Part shown: in pieces, positions 5,433-45,802 of the stretch
Numbering within the stretch: the first letter of the stretch is position 1
Layout of the letters: every line of letters begins with the position of its first letter
Assembly: GCA_921293015.1 (NCBI GenBank)
Contig: OV121091.1
Span: forward strand, 40,904,839 to 40,968,838
Length of the DNA: 64,000 nucleotides
Direction: 5' to 3'
From: Phorcus lineatus
Lineage: Eukaryota; Mollusca; Gastropoda; Trochida; Trochidae
Made by a program: the position numbers and the translations under genes
Notes under the pieces: generated by a model
What the model was told of the DNA's origin: nothing
Database searches by the model: none
What the model saw: only the letters and a program-made list of their open reading frames with translations

Positions 5433-5440
5433 GCTAGAGG
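5433..5440. repeat. Left target-site duplication GCTAGAGG
   Basis: Identical to 13131-13138, directly abutting the first base of the left arm. Confidence 0.9.
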
Positions 5441-6884
5441 GGCGACCAGAATTTAGACTGTTATTCGCTGTTCGTCATTCGTCATTCGAATGGCGAATAG
5501 CAAATTTTTTTGCTTTTCGTCTTTCATATTTGATGATATCTGAATGATGAATAGCAAATTATTTTGCTGTTCGTCTTTCATATTTTGCTTATATCTGAAT
5601 GACGAAAAGCAAATTAATTTGCCATTCGACTTTCATTTTTGAGTGCAATATAAATGATCAACAGAAACAATGTTTTGCAAACAATATTCCTAATCTTCAA
5701 CAAAAGTCCGAGGATTTGCTCCTGGTGCTGTCCCTTTTAGTGGGAAAAATTTCCCCCTAAAATAGAGGTCTCTCGGAAGAACAAAAACCTCTTCTGGAAA
5801 AATATAAAGTGTGCAAAATTGAAAATACACACTTGCAATCCTTCAAACACATATTTACTTATGTAAAGCAATGATTATTCATAGAAATAATGTCTGTTTG
5901 ACTTTTCAAAATTTTTTTTGCCTTTCAAATTTGAATGACGAATAGCGATTTTTTTTGCTTTTCGCAGTTTGTCATTCGTCATTCGCCTTTCAATTCTTTA
6001 TGATTTAATGTAGACATTAATCTTTTAGTGTTTCCTGTGAGCTATACAACAAGTGTTGATGGAGTTTTCAAGCTTTGTAACCATTTAACTTTGATTGTAT
6101 CATCAATAAAAAGTCCGAGGATTTGCTCCTGGTGCTGTCCTTTTTAGTGAGAAAAATTTCCCCCTAGAATAGATGTCTCTCAGAAGAACAAAAACCTCTT
6201 CTGGAAAAATATGAGTAGTGCAAAATTGAAAATACACACTTGCAATCCTTCAAACACATATTTGCTTATGTAAAGCAATGATTATTGATAGAAATAATGT
6301 CTGTTTGACTTTTCAAAATGTTTTTTGCCTTTCAAATTTGAATGACGAATAGCGATTTATTTTTTGCTTTTCGCAGTTCGTCATTCGTCATTCGCCTTTC
6401 AATTCTTTATGATTTAATGTAGACATTAATCTTTTAGTGTTTCCTGTGAGCTATACAACAAGTGTTGATAGAGTTTTCAAGCTTTGTAACCATTTAACTT
6501 TGATTGTATCATCAATAAAAAGTCCGAGGATTTGCTCCTGGTGCTGTCCTTTTTAGTGGGAAAAATTTCCCTCTAGAATATAGGTCTCTCGGAGAAACAA
6601 AAACCTCTTCTGGAAAAATATGAGTAGTGCAAAATTGAAAATACACACTTCCAATCCTTCAAACACATATTTACTTATGTAAAGCAATGATTATTGATAG
6701 AAATAATGTCTGTTTGACTTTTCAAAATGTTTTTTGCCTTTCAAATTTGAATGACGAATAGCGATTTTTTTTGCTTTTCGTAGTTCGTCATTCGTCATTC
6801 GCCTTTCAATTCTTTATGATTTAATGTAGACATTAATCTTTTAGTGTTTCCTGTGAGATATACAATAAGTGTTGATGGAGTTTT
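5441..6884 (+). repeat. Left terminal inverted repeat with three tandem units
   Basis: The tip (5441-5701) alternates TTCGTCATTCG and GAATGACGAATAGC, each followed by A/T-rich runs and CTTTTCG. Tandem units start with AAAAGTCCGAGGATTTGCTC at 5702, 6109 and 6518 (periods 407 and 409). A fourth start at about 6905 is cut off after 17 matching bases. Each unit again contains GAATGACGAATAGCGATTT and TTCGTCATTCGCC, so the tip motif recurs inside the array. No coding potential. Confidence 0.9.
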
Positions 6885-7460
6885 AAAAATTTGTGTCATC
6901 ACAAATTAGTCCGAGGATTTGCGAGCACACTTAATTATAACTGCGGTTCTCAGTAGCATTTTGACCATATGCACGCTTTCTTTTTTGCACGCCCTATGTT
7001 CTGAACCCTTGGGCGGATTTCAATATAAATGAAAAGAGAGAAAAAGATTGTCTTCAATTTGATGTAAAATACATAATGTGCGCCTCGTGAAAGAAAGATA
7101 CAGTAAAAAGGTGATTTTTATATATTTTTAGTTTTACACTGTTTTGTTGCACCAATTTTGGGCAAGTTTCGCATTTTGTATTTATGTAACCAAGTGGAGC
7201 GCTCAACAAAGTTTGGTATCAGCGTAAAGAGCCAAAAATTCTCTTCAATTTGATATACAATTTGTATATGCGCTCACAGAAATAAAGATTCAACAAGCAC
7301 CGCTAAAATGTTATAAATAAAATGTAAAAAGTGAAAAAACGATGAAGGAAACCCTGTTTCTTTAGTGTTCAATTATAGAGTTTTATAAACCATAAAAAAA
7401 TGAAAGGAGAAAAAAACTTTGAATATACATTCATAGAGTTATTGATGTCTTTTTTGAGTT
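6885..7460 (+). repeat. Internal direct repeats left of the transposase (two units, about 185 bp apart)
   Basis: Related stretches at about 7040-7095 and 7225-7280 share TCTTCAATTTGAT, then an AT spacer, then ATGCGC or GTGCGC. Degenerate copies of the same motif in the same orientation occur right of the transposase (10868-10915 and 11066-11120). 6885-6921 is the cut-off start of a fourth arm unit. Confidence 0.6.
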
Positions 7461-7735
7461 AGGGGATTTTTGCGTCGGGCACGGCCATCAGGTCACGGGA
7501 AATTGTCCAACGAAAATGATCGTGGTTGAAACACTGTATGTCGGGGATCTTCCGTCAGAAACTGCCATCAGCTCATGGCAAATTTGTCCAACAAAAATGT
7601 TTGTGGTTGAGGCACAGTATGTCGGGGATCTTCCTTAGGGAACCGCCATCAAGTCATGGGAAAATGTGTCCAAGGAAAATGTTCGTGTTTGAGACACATT
7701 ATTTCAGCGGCCTTCCGTTTCGGCACCGCCACCAG
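7450..7735 (+). repeat. Tandem repeat, about 80-bp unit, three to four degenerate copies
   Basis: Each copy carries the series GCCATCAGnTCATGGnAAA, TTGTCCAACnAAAATG, TGTGGTTGA and TATGTCGGGGATCTTCC. Starts near 7485, 7562, 7643 and 7725 (the last partial). The open frame at 7526-7810 is a by-product of the repeat. Confidence 0.7.
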
Positions 7736-8441
7736 GTAGTTGTTTTTTTCTTCCAAATATTTTTGGGTCGAGAAAACTCATTTTTGAAAATAAAGTTTGG
7801 TTTTAAATAGTTTGCTAAATATGTCGGGATGGCATGAGTTCCTTCGAGTGAACTAAAGACAAGGGGCCTGCTGCTCGTTGACTACGGACGTCCTGATGGA
7901 TAGGCCAGTGGAACCTATCATTCTCGGAAGAGAAGTCAAGAGTTGAAAAACTCTTGTAATCCACAACTGACAATCAGAACTTTCCTGACGTAGAAGGCAG
8001 TTGTTCGCGACTCGCCAGCTCGTTGCTTAGGAAGTCAGAAGGCGGAATCAGGGTTGATAATGTTGACACAACGTCGGCGGCCGTCGGTGCCATCGGCACC
8101 TTCGGCAGGATTGTGAAAAGTCGTCCGATAGTTAGAAAGTGCCCGGCAACAATAGAACTTGTTCGGTAAGTCTGTAAAAAGTTGTCTGAAAGTTAGAAAT
8201 TGTCCAGCAATGTTAGAATTTGTTCTGATTTGTTACTTTTTAAATCATGAAACATGGACAATTAGAAAATGTCTGGATTATTGATGGCCGCTGGCGCGCA
8301 ACAGCAAATTTTTTTCAATTACTTACAAAATGTGGCAATTGAATGTCCATGAAGCTCACATGGAATTTCTCTGTACAACAGGTCATGTGTTGATGTTATA
8401 TCTTGCGTGTGCCTAAATTATTTTCAATCAATTACAGAAAG
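7736..8441. other. Interior of the element upstream of the transposase
   Basis: Non-coding by eye. It includes a degenerate duplication (about 8112-8165 and 8166-8225) sharing AAAAGTnGTCnGAnAGTTAGAAA and GTTAGAATTTGTTC-like text. It is expected to hold the old transposase promoter; no clear TATA box was recognised. Confidence 0.4.
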
Positions 8442-10435
8442 ATGCTTAACGCCAGGAGGCCGCGAACCAGGAGTTGGGAAGGTCTGTCAACGTCTAGTGA
8501 CGACGACTTCATCAACGAGGTCCATGCCGATGAAGCTTCTGATATGGAATCAACTGATGAGAGTGATAGTAACAGTGACAATGATGATGAAAGTGACACT
8601 GATAGTGATGTAGAAATAAGAAACATTGCAAGAGACATATTAGCTGCTATGGGTGAAACTGCTACGGCTGGTACTTCCAGAGAGGAAGAGTTCAGTGGCT
8701 TTGACGAGCAATATAATGAAATGGACACACATTTTGATGACCAAGATAATTTTATGGATCGCTGGGAAGATGGGCCGAGGCAACGTGTCGAATTGCATTT
8801 TACTGGCGACAATGTATTAAGACGGTTCATAGAATTGCCTGATAATCCGCATTCTGTAGACTTTTTCAGACTATTTTTTCATGAAGATGATTATGGATCA
8901 TTGGCAGCAGAAACCAACAGACACTTTCACCAACAGGTCGATGATAAGGTTCTGAAACCCTGTTCACGGTTGAGGCAGTGGTATGAGACGAATGCTGAAG
9001 AAATGAAAGTATTCATAGCAATGACAATAACAATGTCTCTGGTTGTACAGAGAAACTTTTCTGAATATTCGTCAACAAGTGATGTGACGCCGACGCCCTT
9101 CTTTTCCAAATGCATGCCTCGCGACAGGTTCTGGCTACTGCTAACATACCTACATTTGAATGATAACAACCAAATGCCGGGACGAAACACTCCACATTTT
9201 TCACCAATGAATAAACTTGGCTATCTGTACCAACGCATCATGCATCGTTTTTCCAGAGTTAAAAAGCCGCATAAAAACATTTGTGTTGACGAAGGGTTGG
9301 TGCCTTGGAAAGTCAATCTGAGTTTCAAAGTATATTATCCCGACAAGCCGAAGAAGTATGGGATAAAGGCCTACATGTTGTGCGACTCAACAAATGGTTA
9401 TGTTTTCAAGTTCAAACTCTACACTGGAAAAACAAATGAAGCTGTTTCTGTTGGTGGGAAAACGTATGATCTCGTCTTTGACTTGGTGAAGGAATATGCT
9501 GGGAAAGGGTATCATGTGTTCATGGACAATTTCTATTCCTCTGTGGCATTGTACATAAACTTGTGGGAAATGGGAACTGGTGCGACGGGAACTTTGAGAG
9601 GAAATCGCAAAGGCATTCCTGAAAAGGTAAAGAAGGCACAGAAGAAACCGAAGAAAGGGGATATGATAGTCTATCACAATCAATCTATCACTATCACCTA
9701 CTCGTTTTGCGATATGAGGACATCGACAGGAAGTCAGTGTTGCTCTTGTCAACCCTAGAAGACGCCGAAATTGTAGAGACAGGAAGAACCGAGTGACTGG
9801 GGAAGCAAATACGAGACCACGTATTGTGCACGAATGCAACAAATATATGGGAGGTGTGGATCGGGCCGACCAGATGTTATCGTACACCCCGTTCAAAATG
9901 AAAACTCTTAAATGGTGGAAGCGCGTGTGGTTTCATGTGTTGAACGTTGCCATGTTGAATTCTTACATTCTCTATAAATAATTCTCAAAAGACAAACCCT
10001 TGAAAACAAGCTGTCAATTTAGAAAAGATTTGGTGCAGCATATGATCACCTTCGCCGAAACAGAAAAAGTTCCCTCCCTGCGCAGACGTCCTCGTGGCTG
10101 GCCGAGCATGAGCGACGATAGTGTGTTGCGACTCCATGGTCGTCACTTTCAATCAAAGATTCACCCTGTTGAAAGAAGAAAAACCTTTCACGCATGTGTG
10201 TTGTTTGCTCCAAAGCAAAAAGAGAACTTCGTCAAAGGGAAGTCGAAGAAACCATCAGCCAGTTCGAAAGTAAAAAAGGGTAGGCAAAGAATCTTCTTTC
10301 GAATGTAAGGAGTGTAGTGTCGCTCTGTGTGCAGCACCATGTTTCAGACTTTATCACACGTCACAAGATTACACTATAGCTTATATCAGTTTGACGACAG
10401 AGAACGACGAAGAGGGGGATCATGAAGAGAATTGA
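8442..10435 (+). pseudogene. piggyBac-type (PGBD, DDE_Tnp_1_7) transposase, broken
   Basis: piggyBac transposases cut and paste DNA at TTAA with a DDD catalytic triad. The first ATG (8442) opens an acidic, low-complexity N-terminus rich in S, D and E. The DDE core follows: first Asp in ICVDEGLVPWK (9288), second Asp in HVFMDNFYSS (9525), third Asp in MGGVDRADQM (9859). A Cys-rich C-terminal finger (CKECSVALC..PCFRLYH) lies near 10295-10360, ending at a TGA at 10433. Damage seen: a frameshift between about 9690 and 9712 leading to a stop at 9756; a compensating shift near 9785; an in-frame TAA at 9979 within otherwise conserved sequence; and another shift near 10280 before the finger. It cannot make a whole enzyme. 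Alternative: a spliced host PGBD gene, but no splice sites bridge the breaks. Confidence 0.9.
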
Positions 10436-10739
10436 AGAAAGAAGCAGAAGTGTGGATGAGAGTTACTCTCCTGATGCAGTTTGTACTTCACACCAAAAAG
10501 GTGAAAAGTGAATTCATTGTAACATATTGTGAATAAATATTCTTTTTTTTTATTTCGTAAAAGAGACAGAGAAAGTCAATGTGAGCTGTCACTGGAGGTT
10601 CAATACGAGCCGCAACGCGAACCTCCACCCGATCTTTCGCAATTTGTATCTTTAGAAACGGGTGGCGAAACTTTATAATTTTTACATAAGCGTAAAGGGA
10701 AAAGAAATGGCTTTTATTCAATATGAAATTTGGAAATGC

Positions 10740-11400
10740 GCAACACCAAATAAAGAAGCGGCAAACGATGCGACAAATGTCGCAATTATCAAAACAGTTT
10801 CACAAATGTCTGCGCTTCATATCTCTTGACCTATTTGACATTTTTATATATTTTTTCACCATTCTCAAGCACAAAGAATTGTCTTTAATTCAGTGTATAA
10901 AATGCATGTGCGCAGTCAATAATAAATATACTCCGAGTGATGTGACTGGTGTCGCAAATAGAAAAATTATCATAATCTGTTTTCAAATAGTTGAGGGTAT
11001 CCCTCTTTCGTATTTCATATCTTTTGAACGAGTTGGCACATTTTCAGTCTTTTTATTCACAGTCGTAAAGACAATAGATTTATCTTTAATTCCATGTATT
11101 ATTTGTACATGCGCAGCAGGAAATAACGATGCGGCGTGTGACTGCACGCGCCGAGACGATCGGTACAGCAGTAAGCAACGCTGATGCATAGAATACTGGC
11201 ACTCGCATGCTGGTGCTACGGGGGTGCCCAGGGGGTATAACGACACTAATGAGCTTACCGATGCCAGACTGCCCAAGGGAGAATTAGTTCTGGCTAATAA
11301 TCCTGTTATGTCGGAGCATACTCGGGGTACGCCCAACCATCTTTCGCGGCGTATATCTTTTGAACTGGATGGCATATTCTAATACTTTTTTTATCATACA
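10740..11400 (+). repeat. Internal direct repeats right of the transposase (three degenerate units, about 190 bp)
   Basis: Units share TTCATATCTnTTGAnC, a T-rich stretch, GACAAT/CAAAGAAT, TCTTTAATTC, TGTATnAnATGCATGTGCGCAG. Visible around 10815-10920, 11005-11120 and 11345-11405 (partial). They resemble the units left of the transposase and run in the same direction, so they are not transposon ends in the usual inverted sense. Confidence 0.6.
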
Positions 11401-11692
11401 TGTTTGCACGCTCAGAATTAGGGATTTTATTCAGCCGGGAAAAAAGACAATATTTAGATACTTGTAGATATCTAACTAGAGGTCGTATTATAAATAGAAA
11501 TATATCATTGTAAAGAGAAATAATGTATCTTAATTCCATATAAAAGTTTAATTGTGCGAAGATATTTAAGGATTTTCCGTATCTTTAAATAAAGACAATC
11601 TTCAGATTGTAATAGAAATCGTTCTAGGTGAGATAAAAAATTCATTCAAAGTATCAGATAAAGATCGTTCATTTGATTTCAATTTTCATTTG

Positions 11693-13130
11693 AAAACTCT
11701 ATCAACACTTGTTGTATAGCTCACAGGAAACACTAAAAGATTAATGTCTACATTAAATCATAAAGAATTGAAAGGCGAATGACGAATGACGAACTGCGAA
11801 AAGCAAAAAAAATCGCTATTCGTCATTCAAATTTGAAAGGCATAAAAACATTTTGAAAAGTCAGACATTATTTCTATGAATAATCATTGCTTTACATAAG
11901 TAAATATGTGTTTGAAGGATTGCAAGTGTGTATTTTCAATTTTGCACTACTCATATTTTTCCAGAAGAGGTTTTTGTTCTTCTGAGAGACCTCTATTCTA
12001 GGGGGAAATTTTTCTCACTAAAAAGGACAGCACCAGGAGCAAATCCTCGGACTTTTTATTGATGATACAATCAAAGTTAAATGGTTACAAAGCTTGAAAA
12101 CTCCATCAACACTTGTTGTATAGCTCACAGGAAACACTAAAAGATTAATGTCTACATTAAATCATAAAGAATTGAAAGGCGAATGACAAATGACTAACTG
12201 CGAAAAGCAAAAAAAATCGCTATTCGTCATTCAAATTTGAAAGGCAAAAAAACATTTTGAAAAGTCAGACATTATTTCTATGAATAACCATTGCTTTACA
12301 TAAGTAAATATGTGTTTGAAGGATTGCAAGTGTGTATTTTCAATTTTGCACATCTCATATTTTTCCAGAAGTTTTTTTTTGGTTCTTCCGAGAGACCTAT
12401 ATTCTAGGGGGAAATTTTTACCACTAAAAAGGACAGCACTAGGAGCAAATCCTCGGACTTTTTGTTGATGATACAATCAAAGTTAAATGGTTACAAAGCT
12501 TGAAAACTCTATCAACACTTGTTGTATAGCTCACAGGAAACACTAAAAGATTAATGTCTACATTAAATCATAAAGAATTGAAAGGCGAATGACAAATGAC
12601 GAACTGCGAAAAGCAAAAAAAATCGCTATTCGTCATTCAAATTTAAAGGCAAAAAAACATTTTGAAAAGTCAAACAGACATTATTTCTATGAATAATCAT
12701 TGCTTTACATAAAAGAGTATGTGTTTGAAGGATTGCAAGTGTGTATTTTCAATTTTGCACACTTGATATTTTTCCAGAAGAGGTTTTTGTTCTTCCGAGA
12801 GACCTCTATTTTAGGGGGAAATTTTTCCCACTAAAAGGGACAGCACCAGGAGCAAATCCTCGGACTTTTGTTGAAGATTAGGAATATTGTTTGCAAAACA
12901 TTGTTTCTGTTGATCATTTATATTGCACTCAAAAATGAAAGTCGAATGGCAAATTAATTTGCTTTTCGTCATTCAGATATAAGCAAAATATGAAAGACGA
13001 ACAGCAAAATAATTTGCTATTCGTCATTCAGATATCATCAAATATGAAAGACGAAAAGCAAAAAAATTTGCTATTCGTCATTCGAATGACGAATGACGAA
13101 CAGCGAATAACAGTCTAAATTCTGGTCGCC
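11693..13130 (-). repeat. Right terminal inverted repeat with three tandem units
   Basis: Reverse complement of 5441-6884 with few differences. Units end in GCAAATCCTCGGACTTTT near 12055, 12463 and 12868. The open frame at 12231-12476 lies wholly inside the repeat and is not a gene. Confidence 0.9.
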
Positions 13131-13138
13131 GCTAGAGG
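13131..13138. repeat. Right target-site duplication GCTAGAGG
   Basis: Identical to 5433-5440, directly abutting the last base of the right arm. The next bases differ (GACC against GGCG), so the duplication is exactly 8 bp. Confidence 0.9.
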
Positions 13139-23013: not shown

Positions 23014-24030
23014 CTATGTATCTATAGTATCAGGATGTCTTGAACAGAAATCACATAGGTCAGACTTCAAATATCCAATTTTGTAAAGTCGAGTATTTGT
23101 TGGTAGGATATGGTGTAGAATTTTGTATTGAAACCATTGTATATTTGTATGGGTGGTGCATCTGAAAGGTATCTTGTTGTATTTGTTCCATGCTATATCA
23201 GGAATGTTATCTTGTAATTCGATATTCCACTTGTTGACATGATGATTTTTTATGCATTGACTCTGAATAAGGATTGAATAATAGTGTCTGGATCCTTTGT
23301 TTTCTTTGCAGAGATGTTTTATATTAAGAGGAAAAGTTGGTAGTTCTAACTTTTTTACTTGCGTAAATCCCCTTGATTTTATGTATGCTTTTATTGCTTG
23401 AATCAAGCCATAATAGAGAATAAAGTTTGTATTAATATCATATATTTTCTTAAATTCTATAAAGTCTAGAAAACAGTCGTTCTCATCCAAAAGGTCATTT
23501 ATAAAGTGAATTCCCTTGGAGTTCCAGTCTGGGTAATAGATAGTTTGTTTACCAATCATAATGTTTGAGTTGTGCCATATTGTTTCATTAGGAATGTCTG
23601 TAACTGCTTGGGATGAGATATTTTTTACAAAGTCAAGCCAAGATGATACTAAGTCTATGTAGAACGGATTTCTAATATTTTTCGTGATTTCGTTCTTTAA
23701 ATGATGACAATTAAGTTCTAAAATGTCCATTGAATTGATTTTGGGCAGGTTCATTTCAATTAAATTAGACCAAGATGTTGGTTTCTTATAGTAACGTCTA
23801 AGGACGGATAGCTTTTGCGCTTGGATAATTTCTTTTATCTTTGGAACATTGAAACCTCCGTCATCTGTATTGCAGATAACGTGGCCTCTTTTTATTTTAT
23901 CAGGTTTATTTTTCCAAATGAATTTGAAACATTTGCTTTGGAAATCTTTAATGACGTTTTCAGGTGGGTTTGGGATTGTTGTCCCACAGTGAGACACGAC
24001 TTGATAGACTTGGGTTATCCACTTGGGCAA
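23014..24030 (-). mobile_element. L1-like non-LTR retrotransposon ORF2 fragment, C-terminal domain
   Basis: Non-LTR ORF2 proteins carry endonuclease and reverse transcriptase, followed by a long C-terminal region. This 338-codon open frame starts at LLPKWITQVYQ, includes FIWKNKP (matching the LKFIWNxKxP motif of L1-type elements), DDGGFNVP, the WFQYKILHHILPTN and LYKIG motifs, and CDFCSRHPDTI, which begins the terminal CCHC-type finger. The frame meets a stop (TAA) just upstream of the first motif and a stop just after CDFC, where HLFxxC should follow, so both ends are truncated. The long intact reading frame means insertion or truncation was fairly recent. Confidence 0.85.
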
Positions 24031-24039
24031 GAGACGTAG

Positions 24040-25956
24040 ACAAAATACTTAGTCCAAAATGTGTTCACCAAACAGAAAATTAAAGCATTAACTATATTCA
24101 CATTATTATTATCAACATCAGAGTCGTCATGCTGTCACCGATAAACGAAATGTTTGTACACTACAGGAAAAAATGTGGAGGCACGTGACTGCGAGTGTTC
24201 CTTAATAACTGAAATATAAACAATGTAAATCCCATATTAAACTATTCATGCTGTGAGAAAGTATTTCATTTGGCTACATACAACTTCTTACTACCATGAT
24301 TTTACCGAAGTAATAACAATCTTACATTACAACCTATAGGGGAAAAAAGCTTCCGATAACACTAAACTATGGAAAAAATCAATACAAGGTTAAAGGAAAT
24401 CCAAACTTAACAACACAACGTTATGAACAGGTTCAAGAATATCAACTCTAGTTGAAAAAATTCATAAAGTGCAACTATCTTGATGATAGAGAAAATTAAA
24501 TGCAAAGAAAACAAATATTGATATCAAAGCATTGCCTTATCCTTGAGAAAGTAGATCCTTTACCATCTGTAAGTAAAACACATTAGGAGCCATGTGTACA
24601 GTCTAGATTTCTAGTTTAAAGTACCAGCCAAATATAGTGAACAGCAGTAAAGAGGACAAATGAAATAAAGTATTTTTTACTAACCCTACCTTTAGTTTAT
24701 AACTTTCTAAAAATGAAAATGTGGTTGTTGTGTTATGCTAAACTTAACACGAAGAAATTTGCAGGTAACCAAAGATTACAAAGAACATTAGGTTATGAGG
24801 AAACATTTATCTACATCAAAGCAGTAACCTTGCCCTAAGTTCATGAGGAGATTCCATGGAAATAACATGCTGTTTTCTCCCTATGTGTCTAATCTAAGTC
24901 AGACTCTCTTCTCACACTACATGCCTTATAGCCAGCACTATTCCTTATCCAATTAACCGAATATTTCATAAGGTAGCTAAGGTAAAGCCTTGTAAGTACA
25001 CATATTTCATAAAAAGACTTATTTTGTACGTGAAAAGATGGATATATGGAAATAAAGGTCGTCAATGTTTTTGTTGTGATTTCATTATTCCTAACAAAAG
25101 AGATTGTTTTATGATTAAGAATCATATCTAATTGATGATTTCACTTCAAAGAGATATCTTTAGATGGAACATAATTAAATACATCGTAGGTCTTTGATGC
25201 AACACAGAATTAAGTCAGGAATATTTCAATTTCAACTGGCACGTTAATAACCTAGTACTTAGTAACAACTGATATGTTTCTCCTCCTGTATATTTTTCGG
25301 TAGCAGCCTTGAATATGTTCAAGGAATAGGATGTGCGATTGGGCTTATCAGAATAAATTACCTGAAATATCAACATACTTGGGATAACTTTTAGTTAGTT
25401 CTCGAAATAAAGTAGTTAAGTTACGTTCAGTGGCAAACCATTAATCACAATACCATTGTTTATTCAGACATCTTGCTTCAGATTTATGAATTTGCAGACA
25501 CAAACTATAACTTGCAACATTAAAGACTTATTTGATAAGACATGTTTTTTTAAATATTTGGAGATTTGTTAAGTTAAGATTTATTTATATTTCAAAATTA
25601 TCAAGTTGCTTGAATTTAAGTATTGACATTTTTATTAAAAAGGAAAAAAATATGAATAAAAGATAATTTGTATCTTTTGATAATTTTGAATCTAAAATTG
25701 TTAATTATCATAACAAAACCATTCAATACTTTATTTTTCGACTATGAAATATTGCTCCTAAATGAAAAACCGGTTATTCCTCTTGATATATTCATGAAAG
25801 TCCTTAGTTATCAACTGTTGATAGTAAGACTTGTTATACGTGTAACCATTCATTTTCCTTTGAATATCATATGTCGTGAAGAAACATATGTTCATGTTAC
25901 TATCTGGTATATAATCTACCATCAGCAAAAAAAGTGTTAATTAATACCTCGAGGGA
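24040..25956. other. Intron-like AT-rich DNA
   Basis: No exon, repeat family or element end recognised. Confidence 0.45.
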
Positions 25957-40846: not shown

Positions 40847-41300
40847 TAATGTTACGTTACATTAAATCCGCATGGACTACGATATCGGAAATATTAAAAT
40901 TTTGCTCATAACCAGAAAAGCGGAAACGGCAGCCCCTATGGTGAATCTAATAACAATGCTAATACTGTGTTATTAAATCGGGTAATTTACAACATTGCTT
41001 TCATAAAACATATTTCATGATTTGTTCTCAGTTCAGAGTTTAGGTAAATTCAATAGCTGCACACAGTACTAGTTCAGCCGTTTCCAAGTGTCAATAATTT
41101 ATCCGTTTTGTGCACAGCTAACCATAGATTTTTATATGTTCAAGCCGACAGCGGCTTTCTTAACGTTTTCATTGTTGATTGCAGGTAAATTGTAAAGAAT
41201 GTTTAGTATTTCATTACATCGATAGGAAGTTTAAGTGAATGCATAAGTCCTCGTAAACCTTAGAATATCCAATTTAAACCGTAAAAGCGTGCACTATTGG
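40847..41300 (+). repeat. Left arm of a 450-bp inverted repeat pair
   Basis: Reverse-complement match to 47358-47820 along its whole length, from TTACGTTACATTAAATCCG to GGTTTAAATTGG-complementary text and GTGCAC. Shared landmarks: AAAGCGGAAACGGCAGCC, AGCCGACAGCGGCTTTCTTA and GAATGCATAAGTCCTCGT. No TSD was seen at the outer ends. Confidence 0.85.
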
Positions 41301-41359
41301 CTTTACTTTGAGTAAGAGGATTGGTAGTGGGCCTTTACTCTTCCTCTCATTCTGGCATT

Positions 41360-45356: not shown

Positions 45357-45802
45357 CAGTCTGATTAAAATCGACCGTGTTCCGAGGAGTAAAAGTTTCA
45401 AAATATTTACTCTATCGAGTTTCGAACTCTATCTGTCTAGGCTATCCTCTCCGCATCAGTCTGACCGCAGCCTACTGTAGTGCACGTTCTCACGTAAACT
45501 CAGCTAACCAATCACAATGCGTGCGGCAAAAGCATTCGGTATCAGTAGCTAGGGGCAAGTAACTCCCATTTACCATTCGTTAATCTTGATCGCCGCTATC
45601 CTTATTTCAAACGCAATGATGTGATTGGTTCGCTGATGACTAGGTTTTGTCTGGGCTAAACTGGTGTCAGCACGTGCGAGCAGTGAGGCTGCCTTCGGAC
45701 CGATGTGGAGAGGATAGCCTAGACAGATAGAGTTCGAATCTCGATAGAGTCAATATTTTGAAACTTTTATTCCTCGGAACACGGTCGATTTTAATCAGAC
45801 TG
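45357..45802. mobile_element. 446-bp MITE with about 115-bp terminal inverted repeats and 9-bp target duplication
   Basis: Both ends read CAGTCTGATTAAAATCGACC inward. The arms stay alignable for about 115 bp to a GCAGCC (about eight mismatches by eye) through TCTGTCTAGGCTATCCTCTC. The centre has no ORF of note; the frames at 45377-45562 and 45667-45858 read from the arms. A 9-bp duplication is usual for Mutator-like elements and also found in Merlin, so the mobilising transposase is not decided. Confidence 0.88.

Follow-up and report, generated by a model that had tools for sequence, protein, structure and literature searches.

A piggyBac-type gene in the genome of the gastropod Phorcus lineatus lies between two long inverted arms, and the question raised by this locus is which transposase moved the armed unit. 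The locus is part of a 64,000-nucleotide stretch of contig OV121091.1 (the window). A preliminary description of the window had seen a fold-back-like element with tandem-unit arms and an 8-bp target duplication, named hAT or P/Foldback-like elements as fitting that length and Foldback/Galileo elements as having such arms, and proposed either an undescribed family with an unknown mover or a captured transposase. With a probability of roughly three in four, we read the element as belonging to an apparently non-autonomous family of fold-back DNA transposons, in which this copy holds a trapped, dead piggyBac and was moved in trans by a Mutator-type (MULE) transposase.

The element has two 1.44-kb arms around the interior gene (Table 1). 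These match as inverted repeats (5441-6894 against 11690-13130) at 96% identity over ~1.45 kb, and each comprises one 252-bp terminal domain (T) and three units (U) of ~408 bp. Tandem Repeats Finder reported a period of 409 in 2.9 copies in the left arm (5702-6884), a period of 404 in 2.9 copies in the right arm (11690-12878) and ~55-bp sub-repeats in 2.8-2.9 copies close to both element ends. The termini are GGCGACCAG...CTGGTCGCC, and the 8-bp direct repeat GCTAGAGG does stand on both flanks, as first described.

Table 1. Features of the fold-back element, in window coordinates
Feature	Position	Strand	Basis
Left target-site duplication GCTAGAGG, 8 bp	5433..5440	.	flank comparison
Entire fold-back element, GGCGACCAG...CTGGTCGCC	5441..13130	.	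inverted-repeat arms
Left terminal domain T, 252 bp, ~55-bp sub-repeats at 5488-5642	5441..5692	+	
Arm unit U copy 1, left arm	5693..6100	+	tandem repeat
Arm unit U copy 2, left arm	6099..6509	+	tandem repeat
Arm unit U copy 3, left arm (unit positions 1-386)	6508..6894	+	tandem repeat
Degraded passenger piggyBac	6956..11620	+	homology to free copy in L029
piggyBac transposase gene remains	8439..10432	+	match to 665-aa protein of free copy
Arm unit U, right arm, inner copy (unit positions 1-379)	11690..12066	-	tandem repeat
Arm unit U, right arm, middle copy	12065..12472	-	tandem repeat
Arm unit U, right arm, outer copy	12471..12878	-	tandem repeat
Right terminal domain T, ~55-bp sub-repeats at 12929-13083	12879..13130	-	
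Right target-site duplication GCTAGAGG, 8 bp	13131..13138	.	flank comparison

Genome-wide, the 27-bp arm end (up to three mismatches) occurs 107 times (49 + 58) and the reversed pattern, used as a control, 0 + 0 times, so the arm-end matches are not due to chance. The fold-back-like form with tandem-unit arms is confirmed. The family shows the structure of the fold-back class, namely long inverted arms with tandem repeats that vary in number among copies, and in several copies the two arms of one element have unequal unit numbers. Terminal domains within one element are 97.2-99.2% identical (nine copies measured).

The copies are dispersed over many contigs. Exact target duplications were found in 14 of the 23 two-ended insertions compared; eight of them measure 9 bp and six, including that of the window copy, 8 bp. 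They differ in sequence from copy to copy, and among mismatched flank pairs 0 of 506 shared 5 bp or more. These exact direct repeats of differing sequence show that the insertions are delimited by the arm ends and that the whole armed unit moved. Reading GCTAGAGG in the window as a 9-bp GCTAGAGGG minus one G was dropped as unnecessary, given six copies with exactly 8 bp. The other nine copies compared have no exact duplication: L025 and L046/47 have near matches, the flanks of L037, L040, L044 and L045 match poorly or not at all, and inverted repeats flank L009, L013 and L032. Two copies that carry the passenger (L010 and L022) have one end or flank outside the fetched stretch and were excluded from these 23 and from the 24 interiors considered below. 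Three loci (L015, L026 and L027) have a single end each, with no partner and no piggyBac within the ~10 kb read. Five loci with divergent or complex ends were opened in search of a relative that is longer and autonomous. Of these, L040 proved to be an older copy bearing piggyBac and L044 a small old copy, while L041-L043 show pieces of T or U with no complete partner end.

With two duplication lengths present, 8 and 9 bp, the best match is no longer hAT or P/Galileo but fold-backs of the Mutator type; the likeness to fold-backs stands. The lengths lie within the 8-11 bp of the Mutator superfamily, a range given for MULEs in PMC6446971; the reports on Tm1 (PMC3169594) and Tetris (PMC4079207) give 8-10 bp for both. 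The duplications fit Mutator-type fold-backs such as these best. In such a mechanism, a MULE transposase supplied in trans would recognize the GGCGACCAG ends, and perhaps also the motif that recurs in T and U, and would cut and paste the element with duplication of 8-9 bp. Unequal exchange may let the number of arm units grow and shrink, and deletion between the arms would remove central sequence.

The one resident MULE family examined (L048/L049) encodes FLYWCH and MULE domains and has an 8-bp duplication in L048, read by eye; its ends start with GG but beyond that differ from GGCGACCAG and do not match it. No MULE gene was found inside a known fold-back copy among 150 scored of 521 candidates, and none of these scored matches lay within 72 kb of the 104 typed ends (7 of the 107 ends were outside the listing). 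No transposase for the GGCGACCAG ends was found inside a known copy among the 150 scored of 521 MULE candidates or the 74 of 74 Merlin candidates.

An unlikely but serious alternative is that the mover is no MULE but another transposase that duplicates 8-9 bp, be it of P/Galileo, hAT, Merlin or some undescribed type, and that the fold-back form evolved separately. Elements of the hAT and P types make a fixed 8-bp target duplication; the range for the P superfamily with Galileo is 7-8 bp, and Galileo itself duplicates 7 bp. The six copies with exactly 8 bp would agree with such a mover, but exact 9 bp in eight others misfits both the fixed 8 bp and the 7 bp of Galileo. The 8 bp of the preliminary description does not generalize: these eight copies, a majority of the 14 with exact duplications, rule out a strict 8-bp family and depart from the constant 8 bp of hAT. 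Galileo, of the P superfamily, does have Foldback-like, internally repetitive arms (PMC3573991, PMC3688188). The P-element model PF12017 was silent everywhere, but so were its controls. Merlin (IS1595-type) genes with open frames are present and could act in trans. However, none of the 64 genome-wide Merlin matches (74 of 74 candidates scored) lies inside a known fold-back copy, and the two nearest to fold-back ends are 4.2 kb and 16 kb away, both on the outer side.

The interior gene is of piggyBac type, as had been proposed, and matches DDE_Tnp_1_7 at 1.7e-63. Aligned with the 665-aa protein encoded by a free copy, it matches in five pieces that are spread across all three frames, and it contains internal stops. 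The window piggyBac has lost both of its own ends and carries an internal deletion, with blocks homologous to the free copy in L029 at 6956-7159, 7153-11116 and 11501-11620. Directly to its left, a short stub common to L009 was noticed by eye. The parent also occurs free as a 6.4-kb element with TTAA, CCCTT ends and the 665-aa gene, and the genome holds 688 of its left ends; the passenger's domain and the TTAA and CCCTT ends of this parent place it in the piggyBac superfamily. The gene is a dead passenger, nested in the fold-back and descended from a TTAA element of high copy number. What had been posed as a choice between an undescribed family and a captured transposase holds on both sides at once: the window element is a member of a new fold-back family of known kind, unusual in that the same passenger was captured repeatedly. 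Literature searches gave no match to this family in work on fold-back, MULE, Rehavkus, Galileo, mollusc or piggyBac-carrying fold-back elements, with most subscription journals and Repbase outside the scope of that search.

Could a piggyBac-type transposase that switched its target from TTAA to 8-9 bp be the mover? PiggyBac-derived sequence is present in 17 of the 24 two-ended copies with interior read (only weak remnants in L033), which would agree with this. Nevertheless, the reading is highly improbable and we reject it. The free element keeps TTAA and CCCTT ends, the three free copies read have no fold-back arms, and the armed element has no TTAA duplication. The other seven of the 24 copies have no piggyBac, and exact duplications occur in copies of this kind (9 bp in L023, L028 and L035; 8 bp in L036 and L038). 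The piggyBac of L021, near-identical to that of L029, lies between two TTAAs within an arm unit. Moreover, variable sites inside the fold-back lineage number 36/23/24 at codon positions 1/2/3, showing that the passenger gene of the window's lineage is without codon constraint. The same positions differ between L029 and near-identical copies by 0/0/4 (L030) and 0/0/3 (L031) for free copies and by 0/1/5 (L011) and 0/0/3 (L021) for nested ones. The window gene differs from the free gene with a mild third-position excess (33/26/46), which we read as constraint before capture. With no codon constraint in its lineage and a broken reading frame in the window, the passenger gene is very unlikely to move the fold-back.

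In the unrooted "mid" tree, the window piggyBac groups with those of L009, L010, L012, L013, L016, L018, L019, L020, L022 and L024; the split that sets this group apart from L039 and the near-identical copies has a support of 0.999. The left arm-piggyBac junction of the window is 95% identical to that of L045 over 64 bp, and L032 has the same spacing at this junction as L009 and L013. The window passenger thus shares ancestry with those of at least 10 other copies and was therefore copied along with the fold-back. A single ancestral capture would be compatible with the trees alone, because these are unrooted and the root may be placed on the branch leading to the near-identical copies. L021, and C29:162694-169172 from its junction coordinates only, point instead to later, separate insertions, and hence to more than one capture of piggyBac by fold-backs, frequently at a single TTAA within the arm unit. 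It is rather doubtful that one TTAA in the arms (unit position 325, or 313) is a preferred homing site of the piggyBac family, perhaps via a hairpin or cruciform formed by the palindrome, and that the family is spread by the fold-back it repeatedly colonizes, in a standing two-layer parasite relationship beyond chance nesting. No empty palindrome joined at TTAA-325 was found in the loci examined, with one mismatch allowed.

That the palindrome is a product of recombination or segmental duplication and no transposon is barely credible: unit numbers are unequal in several copies and, as the preliminary description had considered for the flanks, four copies lie within or beside a further inverted repeat (on both sides for L009, L013 and L032 and on the left for L018; none was seen for the window copy), but the exact duplications of dispersed copies, set against the mismatched pairs, refute such an origin for the family as a whole.

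A fold-back moved in trans by a MULE transposase remains our preferred reading. With arm units as long as ~408 bp, many copies and passengers of several ages, all in one assembled genome, this family makes arm growth and the identity of the moving transposase testable. The locus also illustrates how an internal transposase gene can lead classification astray: here that gene is cargo, and the length of the duplication points in another direction. A TTAA preference in fold-back arms, if true, would inform on piggyBac target choice.

Among known systems, Foldback/FB-NOF of Drosophila and TU of sea urchin have tandem-repeat arms and duplications of 9 bp (FB) or 8 bp (TU), as here, but short repeat units in place of ~408 bp; the likeness is one of described structure. 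Galileo shares the long, internally repetitive arms but differs in its 7-bp duplications and P-type transposase, for which the model was silent here, as were its controls. PiggyBac and piggyBat (PDB 6x67, 9c0f) resemble the passenger and its free parent in DDE_Tnp_1_7, TTAA and CCCTT ends, unlike the armed element with its 8-9 bp duplication. The report on Tm1, a Mutator/Foldback element of root-knot nematodes (PMC3169594), describes units of 13-15 bp, asymmetric 7-bp end motifs and a copy encoding a MULE (Phantom-like) transposase, all unlike here; like here are the composite arms with variable tandem-repeat number, the duplications, mostly of 9 bp, and the largely MITE-like copies without transposase. 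Tetris, a fold-back of Drosophila virilis, differs (PMC4079207) in its ~220-bp units, which also form satellite arrays, and in a middle domain without apparent coding capacity. It resembles the present family in its duplication lengths, in that an autonomous copy was not found, in its long arms of an external flanking domain and a variable number of tandem units of a few hundred bp, and in a stretch common to terminal domain and unit.

The window, at C17:40904839-40968838 of the 957.8-Mb host genome (74 contigs), carries a fold-back element whose two inverted arms, ~1.44 kb each, are 96% complementary. Each arm begins with a 252-bp terminal domain (T) that contains ~55-bp sub-repeats; three units (U) of ~408 bp come after it. 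T and U have in common a ~36-bp motif at 78-89% identity, which we infer to be a candidate repeated binding site. The element ends in GGCGACCAG...CTGGTCGCC and is flanked on both sides by GCTAGAGG.

A query with the arm's outermost 260 bp gave 152 candidate places in the genome, of which 40 were scored. The terminal 27 bp occurred at 49 + 58 places at ≤3 mismatches (100 of the 107 listed), and the reversed 27-bp control pattern at 0 + 0. Flanks were compared for 23 copies: the window copy, 21 two-ended copies (in one locus or two paired loci) and L046/47, whose ends were retrieved separately; L018 and L024, which lack terminal bases at one end, were excluded. An exact 9-bp duplication flanks 8/23 (L011/12, L014, L019, L020/21, L023, L028, L034, L035) and an exact 8-bp duplication 6/23 (the window copy, L016/17, L033, L036, L038, L039). 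Near matches were seen for L025 (7/8) and L046/47 (7/9), 6/8 bases match for L037 and L044, and the two sides of L040 and L045 do not match. When left and right flanks were paired across different copies, no common run of ≥5 bp occurred in 506 pairs, and no consensus among the duplications was apparent by eye. The T domains of one copy are 97.2-99.2% identical (nine copies measured) and those of other copies match the window's left end at 91.6-98.4%, identities that make the copies recent to moderately old. In the remaining three copies compared (L009, L013, L032) the flanks form an inverted repeat. These copies are enclosed by a further inverted repeat, which for L018 lies on the left side, and the stretch upstream of one enclosed copy itself consists of tandem, overlapping repeats; the enclosing sequence probably represents another palindromic family, in the middle of which the fold-back family lies.

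The gene inside the window element belongs to the DDE_Tnp_1_7 family, with piggyBat (8.5e-72) and piggyBac (3.7e-42) transposases as the nearest solved structures to the piggyBac product. It has 1619 candidate places genome-wide, 96 of them scored and many with an open 665-aa frame. Three free copies without arms (L029-L031) have ~6.44 kb in common at ≥99%, bounded by TTAA and then CCCTT... and ...AAGGG; the left end plus TTAA occurs at 688 places at ≤1 mismatch, nested copies counted. These near-identical ends and the many copies with an open gene are signs of a very recent burst of this piggyBac, to which L029, L030 and L031 belong. Among 24 two-ended fold-backs with the interior read, a non-random set that started from the best arm matches, 17 contain piggyBac-derived sequence (in L033 weak remnants only) and seven do not (L023, L028, L035, L036, L037, L038, L044).

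The window's piggyBac, at 88-89%, groups with those of L009, L010, L012, L013, L016, L018, L019, L020, L022 and L024. Most of this group have one left truncation and several deletions in common; the window copy has the group's left junction (direct comparison with L009, L013 and L045) and retains more of the gene. The fold-back and its passenger thus moved as one unit after capture. Differences from L029 at codon positions 1/2/3 are 0/0/4 and 0/0/3 in free L030 and L031, and 0/1/5 and 0/0/3 in nested L011 and L021. Variable sites in the fold-back lineage number 36/23/24 (~414 each; window copy excluded), and the window differs from L010 at 14/10/13. Against L029 it shows a mild third-position excess (33/26/46), which we assign to the time before capture. 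The window gene aligns to the free protein in five pieces only, in all three frames and with internal stops; it is dead cargo, a passenger and very unlikely to be the mover.

Three TTAA sites occur in the arm unit, at positions 313, 325 and 393. The near-identical piggyBac of L021 is inserted at 325, with TTAA on either side. The ends of piggyBac also fall at 325 in L025, L034 and L040 and at 313 in L014, whereas in L039 the left junction is at 313 and the right one at 325. Genome-wide, in small numbers throughout, the outer-side 325 junction occurs at 6 places (≤1 mismatch), the inner-side at 2, the 313 junction at 7 (≤2 mismatches) or 3 (≤1) vs 1 control match, and the 393 junction at 0 vs 1 control match. 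The surplus of outer junctions is compatible with a piggyBac between left and right arms, the inner parts of both units lost; it may have entered a palindrome centre, or two arm insertions may have collapsed by recombination. Separately, a 1.41-kb insert occurs twice at unit position 325 in adjacent arm units; the two copies are 99.7-99.9% alike, and one is interrupted by a full-length, near-identical piggyBac.

Coordinates of features in the window and at compared loci
Feature	Position	Strand	Remark
Fold-back element	window 5441-13130		
Inverted repeat pair	window 40852-41305 / 47818-47356		~92% identity
Inverted repeat pair	window 45357-45477 / 45802-45681		~92% identity
344-aa stop-to-stop open frame	window 23014-24048	-	by eye; looks like C-terminal part of non-LTR reverse transcriptase
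1.41-kb insert, first copy	L011:1180-2582		
1.41-kb insert, second copy	L011:2985-4023 with L012:1997-2358		
Tandem, overlapping repeats	L006:1-1500		
High-copy MULE family	L048:1245-3457		470 aa; 32-bp inverted repeat near ends

MULE genes are abundant in this genome (521 candidates; 150 scored, 150/150 matching). One resident family combines FLYWCH and MULE domains and has ends that start with GG and beyond it differ from those of the fold-back; by eye, its copy L048 has an exact 8-bp duplication, GTACTGAA, and L049 one of 7/8. Over 2070 bp the two copies show 100% identity. Around 104 typed fold-back ends, no member of the 150 scored MULE matches was found at a distance of 72 kb or less (100 ends from the terminal 27-bp search, 4 from the 260-bp arm search), and none of 64 Merlin matches (74/74 candidates scored) lies inside a known fold-back copy; as far as seen, the family is therefore non-autonomous. 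MULEs in general make target duplications of 8-11 bp (PMC6446971). From duplication length and structure, we infer that the mover is probably a MULE, and Mutator is the probable, though not proven, superfamily.

No described family matching the element was seen in the literature listings searched, which did not include Repbase. Compared by description, the closest in working and likeness are Tetris and Tm1. Tm1 has composite arms and duplications of 8-10 bp, mostly 9, with one copy known to code for a MULE transposase (PMC3169594), and Tetris, likewise with 8-10 bp duplications and composite arms, is placed with Mutator on such grounds (PMC4079207). The window family shares with both the mixed 8- and 9-bp duplications and composite arms, but its unit length differs and, unlike either, it has captured an entire foreign transposon on more than one occasion; by these descriptions it is classed as a new fold-back family.
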